Shown here: in pieces, positions 36,067 through 37,997 of the stretch
Numbering within the stretch: the first letter of the stretch is position 1
How the letters are laid out: each line of letters starts with the position of its first letter
Origin: Haloterrigena sp. KLK7
GTDB lineage: Archaea > Halobacteriota > Halobacteria > Halobacteriales > Natrialbaceae
DNA length: 64,000 nucleotides
Assembly: GCF_037914945.1 (NCBI RefSeq)
Contig: NZ_CP149787.1
Span: 1,426,001-1,490,000, forward strand
Direction of reading: 5' to 3'
Notes under the pieces: model-generated
What the model was told of the DNA's origin: nothing
Seen by the model: the letters and a program-made list of their open reading frames with translations, nothing else
Database searches by the model: none
Made by a program: the position numbers and the translations under genes

Positions 36067-37416
36067 CTACGAAAACAGCCCCCAGAGCCACTCGAGGAAG
36101 CCCGCGACGAGGTCCACGAACCGCTCGAGTAGCGACCGAAGCCCGCCGACGGGACCGCTGCTCCAGTCCGCACCCTCCGTCGCGCGCTCGTCGCCGAGCG
36201 CCGCCGGGGCGTTCACGAGCCCGTCTCCTTCCGCGCAGGTTCCGAGCACCGTCTCCGCCGTCTCGCCGAGGATCTTCCGAACCGGATCGGTCGGTCCCGG
36301 GCCGTCCTCCTCGCGAGTCTCCCAGACCAGCGCCGCGACGCCGGTGACGAACGGACACGCCATACTCGTCCCGCTCGCCTCGGCGTACTCGTTGTCGACG
36401 GTGCTCGAGGTGACGTTCGTCCCCGGCGCCAGCAGATCGACGGCCGATCCGACGCTGCTGTAGGACGCCAGCCGGTCGTTCTCGTCCATCGCAGTGACCG
36501 CGACGACGTTCTCGTGAGTCGCCGGATAGGTCATCGTCTCCGCCTCACAGGAGTCGCTCCCGTCGTTCCCCTTGTTCCCGGCCGCACAGAGCAGGAGGTG
36601 TCCCGCCGAATGCGCGGCGTCAATCGCCCTGCCGAGCGTGGAACTCTCGGCCTCGCCGCCGAGGCTCATCGAGATGATCTCGACGTCGTTGGACATACAC
36701 CAGTCGATTCCGGCGATCAGCTCGCTGTACCGGCCGGAGCCGTCGTCGCCGAGCACCTTCACGGCGTACAGGTTCGCCTCGGGAGCGACGCCGACGACGC
36801 CGCGATCGTTGTCCGACGCACCGGCGATCCCGGCGACGTGGGTCCCGTGGCCGTGGCGGTCCTCGTAGTCGCCGGCCGTCCCGTCGTTCGTGAAGTTCCG
36901 ACCGCCGGCGACCGACAGACTGCAGTGATCCGATTGGATTCCCGTGTCCAGAATCCCCACGTCGACGCCCGACCCGGACGGACCGACGTCGTGGGCGCCG
37001 ATGCGTTCCAGCCCCCAGGACGGTCGCTGGTCGGGATGGGTAGAACAGTCCGAGCCGCCGGGGGGATCGAAGATGCCCGGCAGGGACGGCGACCAGTCCC
37101 CGGGAATTCCCGTCTCGTCGTCGTCTTCGACGGACGCCACGCGGCGGTCGCGCCGCAGCTCGTCCAGTCCGCTCGAGGGCACCTTCGCGACCACGAAGTC
37201 GAAGTTGTCGTACTCGAGGACCGTCGTGCCGCCGACGGCCTCGACCACGTCGAGGAGTTCGCCGAGTTCGTCGAGCAGTCCCGTTTCGGGGTGGACGAAC
37301 ACTCGCTCGGTGTCGGTGCCGATGCCGGATTCCGCGGCTGACGCCGGCACTCCGAACAGTCCGGCCGCGGCGCCGGCCCCGATACCGCCGAGTAACCGCC
37401 GCCGACTGAGTTTCAT
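36067..37416 (-). CDS. Secreted subtilisin-family serine protease (halolysin-like)
   Basis: A 449-residue Tat-exported protease (KLSRRRLLGGIG leader, then AXA-like cleavage near residue 28). Residues about 31-105 resemble an I9 propeptide inhibitor. The peptidase S8 domain carries Asp 157 (ILDTGIQ), His 193 (HGHGTHVAG) and Ser 351 (SGTSMACP), with oxyanion Asn 281 (AAGNKGN), so it should be active. Several cysteines may form disulfides. Unlike classical halolysins it lacks a long C-terminal extension and ends with a short amphipathic, Trp-rich helix (FVDLVAGFLEWLWGLFS) that may touch the membrane. I chose ATG 37414-37416 because the Tat leader starts there. Confidence 0.93.
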   Translation of the reverse strand: MKLSRRRLLGGIGAGAAAGLFGVPASAAESGIGTDTERVFVHPETGLLDELGELLDVVEAVGGTTVLEYDNFDFVVAKVPSSGLDELRRDRRVASVEDDDETGIPGDWSPSLPGIFDPPGGSDCSTHPDQRPSWGLERIGAHDVGPSGSGVDVGILDTGIQSDHCSLSVAGGRNFTNDGTAGDYEDRHGHGTHVAGIAGASDNDRGVVGVAPEANLYAVKVLGDDGSGRYSELIAGIDWCMSNDVEIISMSLGGEAESSTLGRAIDAAHSAGHLLLCAAGNKGNDGSDSCEAETMTYPATHENVVAVTAMDENDRLASYSSVGSAVDLLAPGTNVTSSTVDNEYAEASGTSMACPFVTGVAALVWETREEDGPGPTDPVRKILGETAETVLGTCAEGDGLVNAPAALGDERATEGADWSSGPVGGLRSLLERFVDLVAGFLEWLWGLFS

Positions 37417-37670
37417 GCGCGGGTGGATGCACAAAGGCAAAATAAGTCTTCTGTATTGAATGACAGTCAGTAGAAATGATGGGTCGCGCTCTCGAGCCGC
37501 TTGACTGGACACCCTCGAGAACGCGTTTTCTGCGGCGGTGAACCTCGTTCGTACCGTCGGCGAGTGAGCGGTTCGGAGAACCCGAACGGTGCGCGGTTCT
37601 TGCCCCTACGGGACTCCGAACCGCGGAGAAGCGAACGGGGAACGAAGTGATCCGTGAGCACCGCCGTTCA

Positions 37671-37976
37671 CCGCGAGCGCCGACGGCGCTCGCGGGCCGA
37701 CGACTGACCCGGAGTGAACGAGAGCGCGGCGCAACGCGCCGCGAGTCGAGTGAACGCAGGGGAAGGAGGAGTGTCCTCGTGAGCGAAAGCGAACGAGGGC
37801 TCGGAAGACGCGAAGCGTCTTCCGATGCTTTTCATCAACGTTTTGCCGAGGGCGCGGCGAAGCCGCGCCCGTGGTTCGAAAGGCGCAAAGCGCCTTTCGT
37901 CATCAAGCGAGACCTTCGGTCTCGCGGACCTCGCGAATCTCCGATTCGCTCAGTACGAGAGAGCGAAGCTCTCTCG
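37671..37976. repeat. Array of eight perfect short hairpins with 3-base loops
   Basis: The 581-base gap 37417-37997 holds no credible gene. Within it I read eight perfect inverted repeats, each with a 3-base loop: 37671-37695 (11 bp, loop GAC), 37725-37743 (8 bp, AAC), 37802-37824 (10 bp, GAA), 37850-37870 (9 bp, GAA), 37877-37899 (10 bp, AAA), 37907-37925 (8 bp, TTC), 37933-37949 (7 bp, TCC) and 37956-37976 (9 bp, GAA). Stem sequences all differ. The last ends 21 bases from the eIF1A stop. This may be a structured transcript tail, protein-binding sites, or products of a hairpin-forming mutational process. Confidence 0.85.
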
Positions 37977-37997
37977 AACGACAGAGCAAAAGGTTGG

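Follow-up and report, generated by a model that had tools for sequence, protein, structure and literature searches.

What kind of sequence is the array of eight perfect hairpins that follows the stop codon of the aIF1A gene in Haloterrigena sp. KLK7? The initial annotation of the window (the whole stretch of 64,000 nucleotides that was analysed) had placed these hairpins at 37671–37976, with stems of 7–11 bp and 3-base loops (GAC, AAC, GAA, GAA, AAA, TTC, TCC, and GAA), beginning 21 bases past the aIF1A stop. Our reading agreed with all of this; the first hairpin can alternatively be drawn with a 12 bp stem and a 1-base loop. The block was rejected as a coding sequence, as it held only overlapping mechanical ORFs, and its folding was 8.5 s.d. 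lower than that of shuffled sequences when treated as DNA and 7.9 s.d. lower as RNA. The aIF1A proteins are 97–99% identical across the genus and its nearest relatives, and the parts of the region behind the gene are collected in Table 1. The T-tract listed there is the probable end of the aIF1A transcript, judging from its sequence, as a T-stretch is the main terminator motif described in Haloferax volcanii (PMC7237163).

Table 1. Features of the region behind aIF1A, in positions of the window.
Feature	Position	Strand	Remarks
aIF1A gene, 96 aa	37998..38288	-	ORF; array located past its stop codon
TTTT tract within CCTTTTGCTCTG	37988..37991	-	7–10 bases past the aIF1A stop; conserved in orthologues
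Composite element, 110 bp, TCGTT[HP1]TACTGA[HP2]GAGGTCC[HP3]TTGATGA[HP4]AACCA	37872..37981	-	Missing at this site in G001–G004
HP1, CGAGAGAGC-TTC (sense)	37956..37976		Outer hairpin a of the 110-bp element
HP2, GCGAATC-GGA	37933..37949		First hairpin of the two-hairpin unit nested in the HP1–HP4 linker
HP3, GCGAGACC-GAA	37907..37925		Second hairpin of the nested unit
HP4, CGAAAGGCGC-TTT	37877..37899		Outer hairpin b of the 110-bp element
HP5, GGGCGCGGC-TTC	37850..37870		Receiving palindrome, flanked by TTTTGC and GCAAAA
TCGGCAAAAC	37840..37849	-	Right side of the receiving palindrome; conserved in orthologues
Hairpin TCGGAAGACGC-TTC	37801..37825		In a block common to G002, missing from other congeners
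Imperfect ninth hairpin	37775..37798		Inside the same G002-shared block as the preceding hairpin
Hairpin CGCGGCGC-GTT	37725..37743		Common to G001 and G002
Hairpin CCGCGAGCGCC-GTC	37671..37695		Stem also in G001, G002, G004, and G005; loop varies
74-bp segment, GGTGC..GCACC ends	37588..37661		By alignment, present in this species only, among six

Two further observations concern the surroundings of the array. The next minus-strand gene after aIF1A starts at 37416 and encodes, by sequence, a putative subtilase-type protease. Ahead of this gene, a perfect palindrome (TCGACTGA-CTG-TCAGTCGA), seen at positions 2178–2196 of locus L002 and in the orthologues, is kept in four congeners and degenerate in the window; it looks like an operator outside the repeat family. 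Besides, many gene-end arrays in Natrialbaceae are followed by a block rich in pyrimidines (CACTCCTCCTTCC) and then by TCAGTCGTCGGCCCGCTCGCTC..CGCGGTGA, seen in the window at 37696–37775.

That so many hairpins arose by chance had been called very unlikely, and a census of 864 kb of the same genome, in which genes were called with our own codon model, bore this out. Noncoding DNA contained 100 perfect triloop stems with a minimum length of 7 bp versus 18.2 in dinucleotide shuffles (5.5-fold), compared with a 1.5-fold excess in coding DNA, and loops of 4–15 bases exceeded the shuffles by 1.2–2.3-fold. One third of the noncoding triloops in this census were TTC or GAA. Triloop density across this genome was 0.25 per kb in divergent gaps, 0.90 in tandem ones, and 1.08 in convergent ones.

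Differences among the stems had been taken to rule out simple duplication, which is misleading: the stems do differ inside the block, yet elsewhere they are found again between the same linkers and in the same order, so the block is largely built from dispersed repeats. BLAST with the region gave 52 matches within this genome, and 30 of 31 genomes had matches. For the genus set, the majority of copies closely follow a stop codon and are oriented like the gene; across the order, the unit is not constant in its orientation relative to genes and is also found inside tnpB ends. Stems recurred exactly across the order: the CGAGAGAGC stem of HP1 was recovered in 35 of 61 genomes, and the CGAAAGGCGC stem with its partner in 19 of the 61, with varying loops in both cases and nil or almost nil in the reversed-pattern controls.

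Side-by-side reading of the copies gave the full sense-strand architecture, CTTTTGCTCTG TCGTT[HP1]TGACTGA[HP2]GAGGTCC[HP3]TTGATGA[HP4]AACCAC[HP5]TCGGCAAAA, sometimes extended by four further hairpins with linkers GACTGG, TTGCA, and GACCTC, as well as a short form without HP2 and HP3, TCGTT[HP1]TGATGA[HP4]AACCAC. The basic unit is a gene-free element of about 55–60 bp, TCGTT[HPa]TGATGA[HPb]AACCA, with two perfect triloop hairpins separated by a short fixed linker; its linkers are conserved, its stems rewritten but complementary, and its loops inverted. The ends are short and partly complementary (4 of 5 bases match as inverted repeats), and outer-end complementarity showed a modest excess (0.19 versus 0.11 in shuffles). 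Nine further distinct copies of the 110-bp composite were found, of 109–113 bp and with identical ends, eight of them preceded by CTG and followed by CG. Adjacent triloop pairs fell into several linker classes, i.e., TCATCA/TGATGA (50 pairs), GAGGTCC, GACCTC, TTGCA, NACCATGCGA, GCC, and TGAA, and these can be nested: the GAGGTCC unit interrupts the linker of the first class (TGATGA), and the TTGCA unit interrupts the GACCTC linker. A reading of TGATGA/CTGA as C/D boxes was dropped because TGATCA and other linkers replace them. At loci L299 and L309, which belong to other families of the order, two-hairpin units adjoin tRNA-like sequences.

Pairing inside the unit was analysed with the pattern TGATGACGA-N10..20-TCGAACCAC, which fixes the linkers around the HP4 position and leaves the interior free. 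Among 195 Halobacteriales genomes, 132 contained it, with 0 for the reversed control. Among the 150 interiors listed, 127 were perfectly self-complementary (120 with 3-base and 7 with 2-base loops), and the interiors comprised 28 different stems. Of the pairs, 97.1% formed, versus 77.1% after exchanging right arms among sites of the same length, all of these being descriptive counts, as the genomes are related and their sequences not independent. Turnover was seen between genomes G000 and G005 (92% median protein identity), which had the stem core in common at no more than 10 of about 53 hairpins from orthologous gaps, and HP5 was also present at the aIF1A site of congeners with different stem sequences.

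Sites with and without the element were then compared. At the aIF1A 3′ end, HP1 to HP4 were entirely missing in four congeners (G001–G004), two of which (G003 and G004) showed the empty form CTCTG|CGGG where the window has CTCTG|TCGTT..AACCA|CGGG (bars mark the junctions). The same was found at a tnpB site, empty in L330 (CCACAGG|CGTTGATTCGG) and filled in L206 (CCACAGG|TCGTT..AACCA|CGTTGATTCGG) between flanks 98% identical, and at a PATE-like palindrome, CCTCGGGG|CGTGACCCCGAGG, empty in L118 and filled in L304. In addition, the tnpB end of L333 carried a unit between GCCGA and TCGGC that was absent from L335 and L337, two gene ends within this genome also offered a filled and insert-free comparison, and at least two further linker classes had insert-free homologues at tnpB ends (L316, L317). 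The junctions at tnpB, palindrome, and gene ends corresponded to a G|C step, and no target duplication was seen at any of these three kinds of junction. For the CCTCGGGGTC palindrome, the exact empty pattern had no match in 195 genomes, and BLAST of the joined flanks recovered a looser empty form. An automatic screen for empty sites returned 96 candidates, some of them chance matches in coding DNA, so that this figure is not a count of sites.

As these pairs represent species or paralogous sites and not strains, single insertions are undated and loss is possible at each site. Still, insertion would be more likely than repeated precise loss as the direction of each event, because one and the same unit, bounded by the same ends, turns up in settings that are unrelated. 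The 74-bp segment of Table 1 is probably another insertion; blocks resembling it occur in two Natrinema loci, L102 and L109. Among the tnpB ends examined, 1 of 25 carried a clear unit. The possibility that the unit originated as the omega-RNA part of IS605 was dropped, because most tnpB ends, including those of close homologues, are without it. The 3′ ends of haloarchaeal tnpB genes are a hot spot for small inserts with two hairpins, which belong to several families (L206, L284, L316, L317, L322, L333), and some of these inserts share a single step, CCACAGG|CGTTGATT.

Hairpins kept by selection on RNA and hairpins of DNA can be told apart by the way in which their pairs break. RNA selection predicts stem changes through G.U on the sense strand, whereas on DNA, G.U and A.C are equivalent. 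Broken pairs in 281 oriented hairpins were G.U in 19 cases and A.C in 16, and order-wide, 7 and 6, respectively. The loops of 244 perfect hairpins were GNA in 99 and TNC in 105; GAA (70) and TTC (73), exact reverse complements of each other, were both abundant and the six one- or two-step intermediates between them totalled 8, which fits inversion of the loop and not stepwise change. A comparison of two Natrinema aIF1A sites (L102 and L107) gave such a pair directly, with a GAA loop in one and a TTC loop in the other within nearly identical flanks. The symmetry is not perfect everywhere, since in the sample from the whole order the second hairpin favours TNC loops (68 versus 29). Taken as a whole, the near equality of A.C and G.U and the nearly strand-symmetric loops point to the level of DNA, and the DNA-level sites considered in the initial annotation hold up.

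In light of this, it is unlikely that the hairpins serve the aIF1A mRNA as a structured terminator or untranslated 3′ tail with stems maintained by RNA selection, a transcript tail having also been suggested. Genus-set copies do lie behind stop codons in sense orientation, their stems covary, and hairpins are able to terminate transcription in Haloferax volcanii (PMC7237163). However, neither a G.U excess nor a favoured sense loop was found, strand symmetry disfavours such a tail, the TTTT tract precedes the hairpins, and across the order the unit lacks a fixed gene orientation and is present in tnpB ends as well. Searches with Rfam covariance models gave no match in the window region, and one chance-level match across seven loci.

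A different origin, by mutation only, would need no mobile unit: template switching across tiny loops would continually make such hairpins wherever DNA is unconstrained. Small inversions of hairpin loops are known in chloroplast DNA, and the whole-stem changes that leave pairing perfect and the inverted loops between otherwise nearly identical sites are what such a process would give. What makes it very unlikely as the full explanation is that one set of linkers and ends, in one order, recurs at unrelated sites and in different genera, together with the clean insert-free sites and the scarcity of hairpins between divergent genes. Template switching, named in the initial annotation as a possible source of such arrays, may keep stems perfect and flip loops, but it cannot alone produce clean empty and filled sites of a defined element. 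Spread of a bacterial-type REP/BIME system by a REP-associated Y1 (HUH) transposase would account for repeats that are palindromic, intergenic, mosaic, and biased to 3′ ends in the genus set; we hold it to be highly improbable, because there is no single high-copy sequence, no constant GTAG foot, and the stems change freely. Moreover, IS200-type Y1 transposases were present in 115 of 195 genomes, and the Y1 family (PF01797) was absent among the matches for several copy-rich genomes (e.g., G159, G129, and G134), so a RAYT-like partner is not supported.

We consider it probable, instead, that small mobile repeats of non-coding DNA have piled up at this gene 3′ end to give the array. Each basic element would insert at a G|C step, either within a palindrome that is already there or next to it, would leave the target unduplicated, and could take another such element into its own linker, two units making up the 110-bp composite seen here. 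Its hairpins would form in DNA, with loops mostly of the type C-GNA-G on one strand, a class of unusually stable DNA mini-hairpins, and the element may move or be copied through a folded single strand at the palindrome. Copying from strand to strand would keep the stems perfect and flip the loops. The 3′ ends of genes may collect such elements because insertion past the terminator would do little harm, and harmless accumulation there is the simplest view of any role in the host. More tentatively, and with some doubt on our part, these repeats could represent a class of mobile DNA defined by its fold and not by its stem sequence, i.e., a pair of ultra-stable DNA hairpins whose linkers are fixed and which insert into palindromes and nest, while copying from strand to strand constantly rewrites the stems, matches them again, and so flips the loops.

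Several known systems resemble these elements in part. The predominance of C-GAA-G and C-GGA-G loops, on either strand, recalls d(GCGAAGC), an extraordinarily stable DNA mini-hairpin (PMC10527192), although that stability is a chemical property of short oligonucleotides and not a genetic element. With bacterial REP/BIME sequences they share a palindromic mosaic organization and a bias to gene 3′ ends, differing from them in the two-hairpin unit with fixed linkers and in having neither a linked Y1 transposase nor a single stem sequence; the RepRanger work has no haloarchaeal coverage, and the main text of a survey of GTAG/CGTC-tagged REPs names no haloarchaea. A link to PATEs and to the IS200/IS605 (IS1341) ends of haloarchaea is that the units are found within tnpB 3′ ends and PATE-like palindromes; they are inserts there, and related tnpB genes are without them. 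No two-hairpin unit was found in plasmid PL47.

The closest likeness is to the SMR-A small mobile repeats of Haloquadratum walsbyi (HqIRS42, HqIRS43, and HqIRS55), gene-free sequences of about 110 bp without target duplication, which comprise several unrelated families and sit inside the palindromes close to the ends of IS605-type elements and PATEs (PMC3119063). Our elements likewise lack coding capacity, belong to several families, insert at G|C junctions without target duplication into tnpB ends (L206, L284, L333) and a PATE-like palindrome (L304), and have a similar size (109–113 bp for the ten composites, that of the window measuring 110 bp, with a basic unit of 55–60 bp). In contrast, SMR-A were described from one species, with prominent terminal inverted repeats and high sequence conservation (PMC3119063), whereas the present units occur order-wide, are also stacked at ordinary gene ends, have weak terminal repeats (TCGTT/AACCA), and are characterised by their linkers and their fold, the stems being rewritten freely and the loops flipping. 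Since size, target, and lack of duplication match, and the terminal repeats are weak, we call them kin of the SMR-A type, filed as a variant and not as members, in a comparison made by description and not by sequence. Small mobile repeats of haloarchaea had been reported in one species, with a mobilisation termed “enigmatic” (PMC3119063); here, elements of this kind are followed through the order, with a defined two-hairpin anatomy, the exact points of insertion, sites that lack the insert, and a test of strand symmetry, which make the mechanism testable, both for an enzyme that would recognise folded DNA at the G|C of a palindrome and for the upkeep of perfect stems. It is also a caution that hairpins in the intergenic DNA of haloarchaea may covary without being RNA.
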